Shown in pieces: positions 2,010 to 24,342 of a stretch of DNA of 64,000 nt. The notes under the pieces are model-generated. The model saw only the letters and a program-made list of their open reading frames with translations, ran no database searches and had not been told where the DNA came from. The number at the start of each line of letters is the position of its first letter. Positions within the stretch are counted from its first letter, which is position 1. Source of the DNA: Martinezella rhizogenes (GTDB lineage Bacteria > Pseudomonadota > Alphaproteobacteria > Rhizobiales > Rhizobiaceae); the NCBI RefSeq assembly GCF_027460065.1, contig NZ_JAPYZZ010000020.1:1-64000 (forward strand), written 5' to 3'. Both the position numbers and the translations under genes were made by a program.

Positions 2010-4297
2010 GCCAGTTGCGCCCCCTCGCCTGCAAATCCGGTCTTCGCTTGGTTCTGAGGACGGACGGTTTCAGCCGTACCGGCAAGCCGCAGGGCATTGG
2101 CGACAACGATCAGCGAGGACGTCGACATGGCGATGGCCGCGATCATCGGCGTCGCATAACCGGCAATCGCAATCGGCACGGCGATGATGTTGTAGCCGAT
2201 GGCAAGCGCGAAGTTCTGCCGGATCAGCCGTCCTGCCCGCTGCGATGTCTCGATCGCGAAAGGCACGGCATCGAGATCCTCCTGCATGAACACGAAATCG
2301 GCGGCCTGCCGGCCGATATCGGCGGCGGTGGCGGGCGCCATGGACACATGCGCAGCAGCAAGCGCCGGCGCGTCGTTGATACCGTCTCCCACCATCAGCA
2401 CCTTGCGACCCTCGCCGGCAAGTTCGGCGCAGCGCGCCGCCTTGTCCTTCGGCGACAGGTCCGCACGCCAGTTGCCGATCCCCAGCCGCTGCGCCATGGC
2501 GCTGACGGCGGCGGCCCGGTCACCCGAAACGATTTCCTGCATCAGGCCCCGCGCTGAGAGATTACGCAAAGCCGCAACCGCACCCGCGCGCGGATTATCC
2601 TCGAAACCGAAGCTTGCCAGTTGATAGCCATCGAGCGACAGCACCACTTCCGACCGCGCATCGCCATTGTCGGTCGGTGTCTCGTCCGGGCAGGCGAAAC
2701 GGCGATTGCCGAGCCGGTAGATGCCGGCTTCCGTCTCGGCCTCGACACCCGAGCCTGGAATTTCCCGCACCAACTCATAGGCCGGCAAGGCACCGTTATA
2801 GGCGGCATGCAGGGCTTTCGAGAGAGGATGACGCGAATGGGCAGCAAGTCCCGCCGCAATTGCCATGGTGGCCGACTTCACATCACCTGTCTCGACTAGT
2901 CTCGGTTTACCAACGGTCAGCGTGCCGGTCTTGTCGAACAGCACGGTGTCGATTTCGGCCAGCCGCTCCATGGCCGAGCCTTCCTTGACCATGATGCCGT
3001 GCCGGAAGAGCCGTCCAGCGGCCACCACCTGCACGACGGGAACGGCAAGGCCGAGCGAACAGGGGCAGGTAATGATGAGAACCGCAATGGCAATCAGCAT
3101 CGCCTGTTTCCAGTCCCCGCCAAAAATGCCCCAGCCGAGAAACGTCACCAGCGCGAGAAGATGCACCACGGGTGAATAATAGCTTGCGGCGCGGTCGGCG
3201 ATACGGCGGTAACGCGCCCGCCCGCCTTCGGCCGCCTCCATCAACCCGATCACTTCCGACAGGAAGGAGTCTCTGGCCGAGGCGGTCACCCGAGCGGTGA
3301 GCGAACCGGTGAGGTTGAGCGTGCCGGCCTGCAGGCTGTCGCCTGCCGCAACGCGACGCGATGCGCTTTCACCATTGACGATGGACATGTCGAGATCGCT
3401 GCTGCCAGAGACGACCACGGCATCCACCGCCACACGATCACCCGCCGCAATCGCAATCGACATTCCGGGTCGAACATCGGCAAGCTGGCGGTATTCCCGC
3501 GTTCCATCCTCCCCGATAACGGTCGCGCCGCGCGGCGACAGCCGGGCCAATCCGGCAATGGCCGAGCGCGCCTTGTCGCGCATGATATGGTCCAGCGTGC
3601 GGCCGATCAGCAGGAAGAACAGCAGCGATACGGTCGCGTCGAACCAGGCATGTTCACCGTGATGGATCGTTTCCCACAGCGAAACGGCATAAGAGAGCGT
3701 GATGGCAAGCGCGATCGGCACATCCATGTTGGTGCGGCCGTGTTTCAGCGCGTTCCAGGCAGATTGATAGAAGAAACGCCCGCCATAGATCAGCGCCGGC
3801 GCGGCAATCATCGCCGAAATCCAGTGGAACATGTCGCGCGTCGCCGCATCCGCCCCCGACCAGACGGAGACGGACAGAAGCATGATATTGGCGGAGGCAA
3901 AACCGCACAGCGCCACCGCCCTGATCAGCTGCGAGCGCAACGCGTCCGAAGCATCCTGCCCGCTGGCAAAAAGATGTGTGCGGTATCCCGTCGACAGGAT
4001 TGCACGGGCAATCTCGGCGGGATCGGTCCTGACGCCATTGACCTCTTCCCTCCAGACAACCGCCACACGTTTGGACGACAGGTTCACCCGCGCCCGTTCC
4101 ACCTGTGGCAAACGGTTAAGCGCAGTCTCGATGGTTGTGATGCAGGCGCCGCAATAAACATCCGGCACGCTGAGATCGGTCTGACGCAGCCCCTGCCCCA
4201 GATCGCGGCTCGCCAGCAGCAATTCCTCCGACGATGGTGGATTGACCGGCTCGCCGAGTTGAAGCGAACCTTCCGTTCCCGGTGCGCAGCAGCTCAT
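2006..4297 (-). CDS. ccoI: Copper-translocating P-type ATPase CcoI/FixI
   Basis: This 763-residue P1B-type ATPase is thought to deliver copper for assembly of the cbb3 oxidase. Visible in order are a Cys-rich start (MSCCAPG), a heavy-metal-associated domain with CGAC at about 49-52, membrane helices, the actuator region near 310, the metal-site CPC at 411-413, the phosphorylation motif DKTGTL at 455-460 and GDGINDAPAL in the ATP-binding domain. The actuator motif reads NGES where P-type ATPases usually have TGES. The start overlaps the end of fixH by four bases, and the stop overlaps the start of ccoS by four. The operon position separates it from general copper-efflux CopA. Confidence 0.93.
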   Translation of the reverse strand: MSCCAPGTEGSLQLGEPVNPPSSEELLLASRDLGQGLRQTDLSVPDVYCGACITTIETALNRLPQVERARVNLSSKRVAVVWREEVNGVRTDPAEIARAILSTGYRTHLFASGQDASDALRSQLIRAVALCGFASANIMLLSVSVWSGADAATRDMFHWISAMIAAPALIYGGRFFYQSAWNALKHGRTNMDVPIALAITLSYAVSLWETIHHGEHAWFDATVSLLFFLLIGRTLDHIMRDKARSAIAGLARLSPRGATVIGEDGTREYRQLADVRPGMSIAIAAGDRVAVDAVVVSGSSDLDMSIVNGESASRRVAAGDSLQAGTLNLTGSLTARVTASARDSFLSEVIGLMEAAEGGRARYRRIADRAASYYSPVVHLLALVTFLGWGIFGGDWKQAMLIAIAVLIITCPCSLGLAVPVVQVVAAGRLFRHGIMVKEGSAMERLAEIDTVLFDKTGTLTVGKPRLVETGDVKSATMAIAAGLAAHSRHPLSKALHAAYNGALPAYELVREIPGSGVEAETEAGIYRLGNRRFACPDETPTDNGDARSEVVLSLDGYQLASFGFEDNPRAGAVAALRNLSARGLMQEIVSGDRAAAVSAMAQRLGIGNWRADLSPKDKAARCAELAGEGRKVLMVGDGINDAPALAAAHVSMAPATAADIGRQAADFVFMQEDLDAVPFAIETSQRAGRLIRQNFALAIGYNIIAVPIAIAGYATPMIAAIAMSTSSLIVVANALRLAGTAETVRPQNQAKTGFAGEGAQLA

Positions 4298-20823: not shown

Positions 20824-21216
20824 CTGGCGTCCCCTCGTATTCAAATGCCGCAGCGCACGGATGCGCAGGCAGAATGGCGTTAAAAAGCATATTGTCAACA
20901 ACCGGATAGCTGCAGGTACGCAAGCTTCCCGACTGCGGCGAAAAATCCATTCAACATTCCTCTTCCTATCCGCCGGCGGGGTCCCAGCCAATGGCCCAAA
21001 GCATGTTTCGCCAATCTTTGCGGCTTGTTTTGCGACAACGTCCACCCCCTTTACGCCGTTCCCATTTCAATTGTCGAACGGGCGAATAAGGTTCTGCCGC
21101 GATGCACAATTAAGACATTGACAGCCGGCCCGGATCGGGGCTTCTGAAGATTATTTTGACGAATGATAAACCGCCGCCTGAGAGGCGCGGAAACACAGTT
21201 CCGGGATAGCAGAATC
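20824..21216. other. Intergenic region between divergent mgtE and FdhF/YdeP-like gene
   Basis: These 393 bases hold the promoters of both genes. A TTGACA hexamer at 21118-21123 could be a -35 box for the molybdoenzyme operon, but no good -10 partner is visible at 17 bases, so I do not call a promoter. No conserved RNA or extra gene was recognised. Confidence 0.35.
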
Positions 21217-23517
21217 ATGAGCAAGACGGATTTCTTGGGCAAGGCATCGTCGGCCGCGGGTGGTTGGGGCGCACTCAAAAGCGTTGGCAAACGCCTGCTG
21301 GAATCCGGTGCACCGATTTCCGGCGCCCGCACCCTTTTGAAGACCAATCAGCCGGACGGGTTCGACTGCCCAGGCTGCGCCTGGGGCGACCCCGAACACG
21401 GCTCGTCCTTCGAGTTCTGCGAAAACGGCGTCAAGGCCGTGTCATGGGAAGCGACGGAAGCGCGCGTCCCGCCGGATTTCTTTGCACGTAACACCGTCTC
21501 GGAACTGCGTAGCTGGTCAGATTACGAACTGGAAAAACAGGGCCGCCTCACCCATCCGATGCGCTATGATCGGGCGAGCGACACATATCTCCCCGTCTCC
21601 TGGGACGATGCCTTTGCCGAGATCGGCCGTATCCTCAAAAGCCTCGACAGCCCTGACCGGGCGGAATTCTACACATCCGGCCGCGCCTCCAACGAGGCGG
21701 CCTTCCTCTATCAGTTGATGGTGCGGCTTTACGGCACCAATAACTTCCCCGATTGCTCCAACATGTGCCACGAAGCGAGCGGCGTTGGCCTCAATGCGTC
21801 GATCGGCGTCGGCAAAGGCACGGTGCTGCTCGAGGATTTCGAGCATACCGACGCCATTTTTGTCATCGGGCAAAATCCCGGCACCAACCATCCCCGCATG
21901 CTCGGCGACCTGCGCCGCGCCGCCCTTCGCGGAGCCCGTATCGCCGTCTTTAATCCCATCCGGGAAAAGGGTCTGGAACGCTTCGCCGACCCGCAGGACA
22001 AGATCGAAATGATCACCGGCAGCAGCACGAAGATCGCCACCAACTATTATCAGCCGCGCCAGGGCGGCGACATGGCGGCGGTGCGCGGCATGAGCAAGGC
22101 GGTCTTCGCCGCCGACGCTGCCGCAAGGGCAGCGGGCGAGCCCGCCATTATCGACTACGACTTCATTGCCGAGCATGCCGCCGAATTCGAAGCCTATCGC
22201 GCCGCGGTCGATGCAACGAGCTGGGAAAACATCCTTGACCAGTCCGGCCTGACCCGCGCCGAGATCGAAGAAGCAGCCGGCATCTACATGAATGCCGGTT
22301 CCGTCATCGCCACCTGGGCCATGGGCGTCACCCAGCACCGGCATTCGGTCCTGATCGTTCGCGAGATCGCCAATTTCATGCTGCTGCGGGGCAATGTCGG
22401 CCGTCCTGGCGCCGGCCTTTGCCCGGTGCGCGGCCATTCCAACGTGCAGGGCGACCGCACCGTCGGCATCGACGAAAAAGCGCCGCCGGCACTTCTCGAC
22501 GCACTGGAGAAAGAACTCGGCGTTCCCATGCCGCGCAAGCGCGGCCACAATACCGTTGAGGCCGTCGCCGCCATGCTGGATGGGAAGGCTCAGACCTTCA
22601 TCGCACTCGGCGGCAATTTCATGCGCGCGACCCCCGACAGTCCGCTGATCGTTAAGGCCTTCGAAAAGCAGAAGCTCACCGTCAACATCGCCACCAAGCT
22701 CAACCACTCGCATCTGGTGCCGGGTGAAACTTCCTTCGTGCTGCCCTGCCTCGGCCGGACGGAAATCGACCGCAATTCGGCCGGCCGGTCGCAGATCGTC
22801 ACCGTCGAGGATTCCATGAGCATGGTGCATGGCTCCGGCGGCATCAATCCGCCGGCCTCGGATGCACTTCGCTCGGAAGTCGCGATCATCGCCGGCATCG
22901 CCGAAGCCACGCTCGGCAATGTCAATGTGAACTGGAAAGCCCTCGCCGATGATTACGATCTCATCCGCGACATGATCGAGCGCGTCATTCCGGGTTTCGA
23001 CAATTTCAACGAGCGTGTCCGCATTCCCCGCGGTTTTCATCTGCGCAACGCCGCCGCCGAACGGCAATGGAATACGCCTGCGAAAAAGGCCACCTTCTAT
23101 AGCGGCCCGCTGCCCGAGAAGACCGAGCACCAGCAGGCGCTGACCCGCGACAATCTATTCGTGCTGCAGACCTTCCGCAGCCACGATCAATACAACACCA
23201 CGATCTACGGCATGGATGACCGCTATCGTGGCGTCTATGGCGAGCGCCAGGTCATTTTCATGAACCCTGGGGATATGGAGGCGCTCGGCGCCCATTCCCG
23301 TCAGCGTGTCGATGTCATCGGCGAATATGGCGACGGGGTGGAGCGCATCGCCAGGAACTTCCGTCTGGTGCCCTATAATATCCCGCGAGGCAGCGTCGGC
23401 GGATATTATCCGGAACTGAACGTGCTGGTGCCGCTGTCGAGCTATGGCGAAGGCAGCTTCACGCCGACATCGAAATCGGTGCTGGTTTCCGTCCGCCTGC
23501 TTGCCGATGCCACATGA
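21217..23517 (+). CDS. FdhF/YdeP family molybdopterin-dependent oxidoreductase
   Basis: This protein of about 766 residues belongs to the formate-dehydrogenase-alpha-like/YdeP group of the DMSO reductase superfamily. Near the N-terminus is DCPGCAWGD (cysteines 51 and 54) with another cysteine at about 71, fewer than the four cysteines of typical Fe4S4 formate dehydrogenases. The Mo-bis-pterin fold is marked by YTSGRASNEAAFLYQLMVR, FVIGQNPGTNHPRM, GNVGRPGAGLCPVRGHSNVQG and LPCLGRTEID, with the C-terminal FRSHDQYNTTIYGMDDRYRG block. The true substrate of YdeP proteins is not settled. The start at 21217 (MSKTDFLGK) fits best; 21163 is an alternative. No fdhD lies beside it. Confidence 0.9.
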   Translation: MSKTDFLGKASSAAGGWGALKSVGKRLLESGAPISGARTLLKTNQPDGFDCPGCAWGDPEHGSSFEFCENGVKAVSWEATEARVPPDFFARNTVSELRSWSDYELEKQGRLTHPMRYDRASDTYLPVSWDDAFAEIGRILKSLDSPDRAEFYTSGRASNEAAFLYQLMVRLYGTNNFPDCSNMCHEASGVGLNASIGVGKGTVLLEDFEHTDAIFVIGQNPGTNHPRMLGDLRRAALRGARIAVFNPIREKGLERFADPQDKIEMITGSSTKIATNYYQPRQGGDMAAVRGMSKAVFAADAAARAAGEPAIIDYDFIAEHAAEFEAYRAAVDATSWENILDQSGLTRAEIEEAAGIYMNAGSVIATWAMGVTQHRHSVLIVREIANFMLLRGNVGRPGAGLCPVRGHSNVQGDRTVGIDEKAPPALLDALEKELGVPMPRKRGHNTVEAVAAMLDGKAQTFIALGGNFMRATPDSPLIVKAFEKQKLTVNIATKLNHSHLVPGETSFVLPCLGRTEIDRNSAGRSQIVTVEDSMSMVHGSGGINPPASDALRSEVAIIAGIAEATLGNVNVNWKALADDYDLIRDMIERVIPGFDNFNERVRIPRGFHLRNAAAERQWNTPAKKATFYSGPLPEKTEHQQALTRDNLFVLQTFRSHDQYNTTIYGMDDRYRGVYGERQVIFMNPGDMEALGAHSRQRVDVIGEYGDGVERIARNFRLVPYNIPRGSVGGYYPELNVLVPLSSYGEGSFTPTSKSVLVSVRLLADAT

Positions 23518-23532
23518 GCCGGATGCCGCCTG

Positions 23533-23832
23533 ATGAATGAGGAACGATCCGCAGCAGCCTTTCTGGCCGCTGTGGGAAAACTCCAGCAATCGTCTCCAGC
23601 GCTGACGGCAACGGGAGCAGCAATCCTACTTGCGATCCATAAGGACATCGCCACCGATAGCCGCAGCATCGCCAACCGGCTGGGGCTTGCGCACGCCCTC
23701 GTTCTGCGCGAAATCACTAGCCTGTCGCCCCGCTTCCTGCGGGTGACGAAACGCGATGCCCGCACCCAGCGCAGCTTTCTGGAGGCAACCGGGGAAGGAC
23801 AGGCGCTTGCCGCCTCATCCTCGCAGATTTGA
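23533..23832 (+). CDS. Small winged-helix-like protein, function unknown
   Basis: This 99-residue protein starts 15 bases after the molybdoenzyme and ends 15 bases before the deformylase-like gene. The middle, ATDSRSIANRLGLAHALVLREITSL followed by FLRVTKRDARTQRSFLEAT, has the helix-turn-helix plus wing spacing seen in MarR/ROK-like regulators, suggesting DNA binding or a partner fold. I do not recognise a named family. There is no signal peptide or membrane segment. It could be an accessory or autoregulator of the operon. Confidence 0.7.
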   Translation: MNEERSAAAFLAAVGKLQQSSPALTATGAAILLAIHKDIATDSRSIANRLGLAHALVLREITSLSPRFLRVTKRDARTQRSFLEATGEGQALAASSSQI

Positions 23833-23847
23833 ACGAAGGAGCATTCC

Positions 23848-24342
23848 TTGGCAATCAGGCCGATCCTGCCCTACCCCCACGCCGGTCTTTCAGGGATCTG
23901 CGCGCCGGTTCTGGCTTTTGACGATCATCTGCGGGAACTGGTCACGGATCTGATCGACACGATGCGCGCCGCCCCCGGCGTCGGCATCACGGCGGCCCAT
24001 ATCGGCGTGATGCAGCGCGTCTTCGTGCTCGAATTGACGCCGGGAACCGTCCTGACCTACATCAATCCCGAAATCACCAGCCAATCTCCACAGACCATGC
24101 GGCATGTGGAAGGCAGCGTGTCGATGCCGGGCTTTACCGACGAGGTGGAGCGGCCTTCCACGGTGGAGGTGAGGTTTCAGGATATAACTGGCGCGGAACA
24201 CGCCGAGACCACCGAAGGCTTCCACGCCATCTGCATCCAGCACGAGATCGACCAGCTTGACGGCATCTTTTGGCTGAAGCGCCTCTCCAAGCTGAAGCGC
24301 GACCGACTGGTGAAGAAATGGGAAAAATCCCGAAAGCCGTAA
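23848..24342 (+). CDS. Peptide deformylase-like protein with degenerate active site
   Basis: This 164-residue protein is recognisably peptide-deformylase fold: GVGITAAHIG (44-53) aligns with motif 1 GxGxAAxQ, EGSVSMPGF (89-97) with EGCLS, and QHEIDQLDG (131-139) with QHExDHLxG. Three functional residues differ: the motif-1 Gln is His51, the metal-ligand Cys is Ser90, and the second metal-ligand His is Gln136. Codons AGC and CAG were read directly. Family knowledge says the Cys and both His hold the catalytic Fe2+, so normal deformylase activity is doubtful. It is the last gene of the operon with the FdhF/YdeP-like enzyme. Confidence 0.88.
   Translation: MAIRPILPYPHAGLSGICAPVLAFDDHLRELVTDLIDTMRAAPGVGITAAHIGVMQRVFVLELTPGTVLTYINPEITSQSPQTMRHVEGSVSMPGFTDEVERPSTVEVRFQDITGAEHAETTEGFHAICIQHEIDQLDGIFWLKRLSKLKRDRLVKKWEKSRKP

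Follow-up and report, generated by a model that had tools for sequence, protein, structure and literature searches.

The window analysed in this work, a 64,000-nucleotide stretch of a Martinezella rhizogenes contig (NZ_JAPYZZ010000020.1), encodes a relative of peptide deformylase (PDF) that is probably not an ordinary PDF copy. The protein belongs to a clade, here called H-S-Q, whose members carry His, Ser and Gln at three positions of the former catalytic centre. On the sequence evidence presented below, we regard as about evenly balanced the reading that the H-S-Q protein is an accessory PDF relative that docks on the ribosome and binds N-termini, with a site that has been rewired rather than lost. 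Under this reading, a hydrolase working with another metal or with none, possibly oxidant-proof, would be the most likely activity, a non-cleaving reader being less likely.

Sequence of the Protein and Position of Its Gene

The window protein matched the Pfam family PF01327 over its whole length with a score of 143.4 bits against a cut-off of 22.8 (E 5.5e-42), and the NCBIfam family NF009484 (PRK12846.1-5) with 256.1 bits against a cut-off of 190. The protein was aligned with E. coli Def, whose residues are given in the literature numbering. His51 was found in place of the motif-I Gln, Ser90 in place of Cys and HEIDQ in place of HEXXH, with Glu133 present. Of four motif features expected in an active PDF, the protein lacks three (the motif-I Gln, the metal Cys and a complete pair of metal His, His132 being kept) and retains the catalytic Glu. 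The sequence-only reading of this DNA had assigned His51, Ser90 and Gln136 to the places of the motif-I Gln, the metal Cys and the second metal His, and the assignment agrees with the codons and with the alignment, in which these residues fall on Gln50, Cys90 and His136 of E. coli Def.

A canonical set was compiled for comparison from 32 of the 34 other PDFs in our tree, comprising 24 main Defs, E. coli Def and 7 standard-motif accessory PDFs, two diverged Rhodobacterales copies being left out. The motif-I Gln, the metal Cys and the second motif-III His were each present in 32/32 of these proteins. A standard def, for which the sequence-only reading had suggested looking, occurs in the same genome (G000:C1:400035-400490, minus strand), where it carries EGCLS and QHEIDH and represents the sole other PF01327 match. 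The coordinates of the features are collected in Table 1.

Table 1. Features of the PDF-like gene and its upstream region, in window coordinates.
Feature	Position	Strand	Basis
H-S-Q clade PDF-like gene, 164 aa, TTG start	23848..24342	+	ORF, Pfam/NCBIfam profiles, tree
AAGGAG, likely ribosome-binding site of the TTG start	23836..23841	+	Six bases upstream, by sequence
His51 codon CAT, replacing motif-I Gln (E. coli Gln50)	23998..24000	+	Sequence and alignment
Ser90 codon AGC, replacing metal-ligand Cys (E. coli Cys90)	24115..24117	+	Sequence and alignment
His132 CAC (24241-24243) and Glu133 GAG (24244-24246), kept metal His and catalytic Glu	24241..24246	+	Alignment
Gln136 codon CAG, replacing second HEXXH His (E. 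coli His136)	24253..24255	+	Sequence and alignment
C-terminal basic helix region, residues 148-164	24289..24339	+	Model and alignment with E. coli PDF
99-aa ORF directly upstream of the PDF-like gene	23533..23832	+	ORF; profile scans
FdhF/YdeP family oxidoreductase gene upstream, same strand	21163..23517	+	NCBIfam; neighbour comparison

The Three Changes Occur Together in One Clade

Relatives of the window protein were collected by two routes. A sample of 151 genomes was drawn from the window's family and relatives were picked by their NF009484 score, which exceeded the cut-off in 45/151. All 45 proteins were read, and His51, Ser90, His132, Glu133 and Gln136 were present in 45/45, a figure to be taken with the fact that the NF009484 profile was probably itself built from such H-S-Q proteins. 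The sequence-only reading had raised the questions whether the altered residues are conserved and whether relatives instead keep Cys and His; none of the 45 does, and all carry His51, Ser90 and Gln136.

The second route was a DNA scan for the altered motif III in one genome per species over 84,980 species. It returned at least 118 stretches, and 116 of those listed encode PDF relatives, L143 and L186 being left out as non-PDF sequences and L116 representing one broken gene. Glu133 was present in 116/116 of these listed relatives, Gln136 and His132 having been part of the search pattern. With the broken L116 set apart, the motif-I His was found in 110/110 of the listed relatives with that motif in view and the motif-II Ser in 113/113; motif II is cut off in L087 and L129, and motif I in these two as well as in L135, L152 and L171. 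Every intact sequence that was read showed the three changes in combination.

Names were available for 80 of the 118 listed stretches, and by these names all 79 PDF rows belong to the Alphaproteobacteria. Among the matches listed, the genera include Rhizobium and relatives, Mesorhizobium, Bradyrhizobium, Methylobacterium, Bosea and Devosia, together with Brucella, Ochrobactrum, acetic acid bacteria, Roseomonas and Caenispirillum; a Tistrella copy comes from a plasmid record. When genomes were drawn evenly over the class, the altered pattern was detected in 9/289, the 8 besides the window's own also carrying the His and the Ser, and the gene is therefore patchy in the class.

A tree of the 45 H-S-Q proteins and the 34 other PDFs placed the clade on one side of a single branch with a support of 100/97, and this branch occurred in 100% of 200 bootstrap trees. 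The inner order of the clade mixes bacterial orders, many inner forks being weak, and several copies are plasmid-borne; because of this mixed order and the plasmid copies, the gene has probably moved between lineages. An alignment (A1) was also prepared from 60 of 73 full-length rows plus the window protein, the 13 omitted rows being close copies and one cut row, and 61/61 of its members matched NF009484 at E 1e-5 or better.

Two further observations were made on individual members. The genome of Ochrobactrum chromiisoli (G458) encodes two different H-S-Q proteins (L097 and L241) beside a canonical Def (L222). In Tistrella and similar sequences (L203:5001-5585, L217 and L218), a tandem DAEAG-type repeat is inserted before the conserved YVNP stretch; its copy number varies between related genomes, and the H-S-Q member L219 is without it.

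Conserved Residues, Docking Helix and Fold

The 45 profile-picked proteins share a median pairwise identity of 58% (range 41-89%). Of the 164 positions, 31 are invariant among them and all five former catalytic positions are included, which in a random draw would occur with a probability of 2e-4. Ten positions have a fixed residue that differs from the canonical one when a residue is required in at least 90% of the clade and the other in at least 70% of the canonical set, and nine of the ten lie within motifs I-III or a short way behind them. The exchanges are Met to Leu35, Leu to Ile47, Ala to Thr48, Gln to His51, Cys to Ser90, Leu to Val91, Ile to Met93, His to Gln136, Leu to Phe141 and Phe to Trp142. 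Gly46, Glu88, Gly89, Arg102, Gln131, His132, Glu133 and Asp135 are kept in the clade, Arg102, His132 and Glu133 without exception.

Residues of the C-terminal helix of E. coli PDF dock on ribosomal protein uL22 and 23S rRNA, according to a recent study (PMC12690207). The window protein has the same residues as E. coli PDF at L149, K150, R153, K157 and K160, and Lys instead of Arg at position 163. Among the 45 clade proteins, L149 is found in 44, K150 in 42, R153 in 44, Lys or Arg at 157 in 43 and K160 in 45, the corresponding numbers for the 24 main Defs being 24, 23, 10, 24 and 24. Lys or Arg occupies position 163 in 26/45 clade proteins versus 23/24 main Defs. The docking helix, as judged from these residues, is retained, with R153 kept better and position 163 worse than in the main Defs. 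As the main Defs have the other docking residues equally often, and Lys or Arg at 163 more often, the clade may simply have received the helix by descent, with no special constraint on it. A stricter conservation of the whole helix in the clade was considered and dropped after a recount on the 24 main Defs, R153 being the one position that is stricter.

An AlphaFold2 model, calculated from the alignment of 61 clade members, had a pLDDT of 96.8 and placed a helix at residues 148-162. It superimposed on the P. aeruginosa PDF 1n5n (Z 27.0, 1.2 A over 164 residues) and on the E. coli PDF 1xen (Z 26.8, 1.2 A over 162 residues), and the 50 best solved-structure matches listed were all PDFs. By sequence and by predicted fold, the protein belongs to the PDF fold family over its whole length. 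According to the model, the substrate groove is probably intact.

Accessory Copy, Selection and Intactness

Each of the 45 H-S-Q genomes contains at least two PDF matches by profile count, and the best PDF carried EGCLS and HE.DH in 20/20 named genomes checked. In the genomes checked, the H-S-Q protein is an extra copy and never the sole PDF.

Over 163 pairs of relatives, the dN/dS ratio had a median of 0.16 and reached 0.53 at most; the pairs are not independent and were limited to 80-99.5% identity and dS <1.5, loci fetched twice being included. The gene is under purifying selection.

One damaged copy was seen elsewhere in the clade. In Acidocella sp. KAb 2-4 (L116), an H-S-Q PDF gene is broken around 3113-3138, where its 3' half shares a single open frame with a stretch that may resemble the start of a tyrosine integrase; a mobile element possibly lies next to it. 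In genome G092, the profile match runs across a TAA located at the C-terminal end.

Genomic Neighbourhood

In the window, the FdhF/YdeP gene, the 99-aa ORF and the PDF-like gene lie on one strand (21163-24342) with gaps of 15 bp, which suggests that the three genes are co-transcribed. Neither Pfam nor NCBIfam gave a hit for the 99-aa ORF at E 0.001, and the 2 further genomes of the genus within the sample have a relative of it in the corresponding position. Among the 45 genomes of the family sample, this gene order occurs in the 3 of the window's genus and in none of the other 42. A link between deformylation and formate, through the formate-dehydrogenase-like gene, is tempting, with one genus as its basis.

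No general neighbour gene family emerged from the loci compared. The commonest neighbour, MgtE, was found divergently oriented within 1.5 kb at 26/114 loci, and the next commonest clusters of this wider sample at 10/114 and 9/114; five proteins were scanned among the neighbour clusters for annotation. In the family sample, consisting of 46 loci from 45 genomes (G120 being represented twice) with flanks of 1.5 to 6 kb, MgtE, with MerR, was present in the fetched stretch of 26/46 loci, and in 3 of these 26 FdhF sits between MgtE and the PDF-like gene. We read the MgtE adjacency as inherited gene order. An OsmC-like gene was found near the PDF-like gene in 7/46 loci.

A phage origin was considered and rejected on the viral matches listed. 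The one exact motif-III match in viral contigs is a chance match that is not a PDF and lies opposite another frame, which by eye we take to be ParB-like, and the 12 listed of 155 phage rows showed <40% identity.

Discussion

By its modelled fold and C-terminal helix, the window protein is of the type 1B kind. It resembles the type 1B enzyme E. coli Def in the whole fold, in His132, Glu133 and Arg102 and in the C-terminal basic helix, whereas Gln50, Cys90 and His136 are replaced by His, Ser and Gln; the identity is 32% to E. coli PDF and 40% to P. aeruginosa PDF. It also belongs to the NCBIfam family NF009484, named "peptide deformylase", but that name, which designates the family and does not stand for a demonstrated function, implies an activity which the missing ligands make doubtful.

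Among the papers listed by a literature search, none concerned the H-S-Q clade. An alphaproteobacterial paralogue that has likewise lost catalytic residues is found on a Pseudorhodobacter turbinis plasmid (NZ_CP039965.1, L202:4468-4962), as the third of three tandem PDF genes before a frame which by eye we take to be fmt. Unlike the H-S-Q proteins, it has EASPN and HQIDH, so that Cys and Glu are lost while the motif-I Gln and both His are kept, and it falls outside the clade; it would thus represent a different route by which an alphaproteobacterial PDF can lose its chemistry. Type 3 PDFs, found in trypanosomatids, in archaea and as some bacterial second copies, are described as having, for the most part, weak activity or none (PMC12690207, PMC5591237). 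Type 3 proteins share with the H-S-Q clade the occurrence of changes in conserved motifs (PMC12690207, PMC5591237), but in the descriptions available they are a mixed group with various changes, as opposed to the one fixed triple of the clade. The large 2025 study of accessory PDFs, in its accessible part, deals with incomplete motifs generally and not with the H-S-Q clade (PMC12690207).

That the protein is probably not an ordinary deformylase, as the sequence-only reading had proposed, is well supported, the three changes being fixed together in one clade. In addition, a study on Salmonella PDF reports that activity requires Cys90 and that a Cys90-to-Ser copy fails to rescue growth (PMC7683392).

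According to the preferred reading, that of a rewired accessory protein, the Gln/Cys/His-Glu-His centre would have given way to one made of His51/Ser90/His132-Glu133/Gln136. The protein would dock at the ribosomal tunnel exit, and formyl-Met or another modified nascent N-terminus would enter the old substrate groove; with less confidence, the site might still hydrolyse. Gln and His appear swapped between motif I and motif III, like ligands that have been re-dealt, and His51 and His132 might act as ligands and Glu133 as the base, with Gln136 doing what Gln50 does in the canonical centre. Against a site that still hydrolyses stands the poor quality of serine as a ligand for metals. So does the requirement of Salmonella PDF for Cys90 (PMC7683392). 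A centre of this kind would be free of the oxidisable cysteine-iron pair, which could be useful when peroxide or nitric oxide poisons the iron enzyme. Low H2O2 oxidises the iron of E. coli PDF and the Cys ligand with it (PMC10751367), and NO nitrosylates Cys90 of Salmonella PDF (PMC7683392); because both agents attack the Cys in these enzymes, a thiol-free version of PDF is plausible.

Since Glu133, His132 and the three new residues never vary, we lean to a site that has been rewired and still works over one that is dead. However, strict conservation could equally reflect a binding function, and no general neighbour supports the oxidant reading. The more specific proposal of a second N-terminal processing enzyme at the alphaproteobacterial ribosome, which would remove the formyl group or another mark without the oxidisable iron-cysteine pair and allow maturation under peroxide or NO, for example in nodules, is offered tentatively and appears rather doubtful.

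The chief rival reading is that the H-S-Q protein is a pseudoenzyme at the tunnel exit, where it would hold formyl-Met or other N-termini uncleaved, timing or gating canonical deformylation, a role that is quite possible although we would not back it. All intact members of the clade that were read lack two metal ligands, one of them the Cys required for activity in Salmonella PDF (PMC7683392), whereas they retain Gly46, Arg102, the majority of the docking residues and, as modelled, the fold. However, there is no evident use in a dead binder for Glu133, which is present in 45/45 family relatives and in 116/116 among the matches listed, and each lost position is occupied by one fixed residue instead of drifting; the Rhodobacterales paralogue, with the Cys region and the Glu both gone, shows what loss can look like.

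A metal-free serine hydrolase, with Ser90 as the nucleophile, His51 or His132 and Glu133 as partners and a substrate other than formyl-Met, seems unlikely. It would account for a Ser, two His and a Glu that are invariant in one pocket, and for the change of Leu46, Ala47, Leu91 and Ile93 of the E. coli pocket to Ile, Thr, Val and Met, all fixed or nearly so, but no general neighbour hints at such a substrate. Still less probable, to the point of being very improbable, is an ordinary iron deformylase that tolerates the changes. The whole fold, His132, Glu133 and Arg102 are indeed kept, and 7.1% of reference genomes are reported to contain no PDF exactly matching even the updated motifs (PMC12690207). 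Against it stand the absence of two of the three metal ligands, the requirement for Cys90 reported for Salmonella PDF (PMC7683392) and the retention of another PDF in 45/45 genomes by match number, with standard motifs read in 20/20. A sequencing error or a decaying pseudogene is hardly credible and was rejected: the Acidocella copy is broken and the G092 match crosses a TAA, but nothing of the kind was found for the window copy, whose frame is intact with a ribosome-binding site, whose altered residues are common to 45/45 relatives and whose group has a median dN/dS of 0.16.

PDF is essential and serves as a drug target, and the metal site is seen as what defines the family at its centre. By swapping this site and keeping the fold, the Glu and most docking residues, the clade would provide either another way of carrying out the PDF reaction or a protein that reads N-termini on the ribosome, and both outcomes would, to our knowledge, be new. 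This PDF relative is carried by many root-nodule, methanol-using and vinegar bacteria. The name "peptide deformylase" is doubtful for a second copy in 45/151 genomes sampled from the window's family, and annotation-based counts of accessory PDFs therefore probably include proteins that are not such enzymes.
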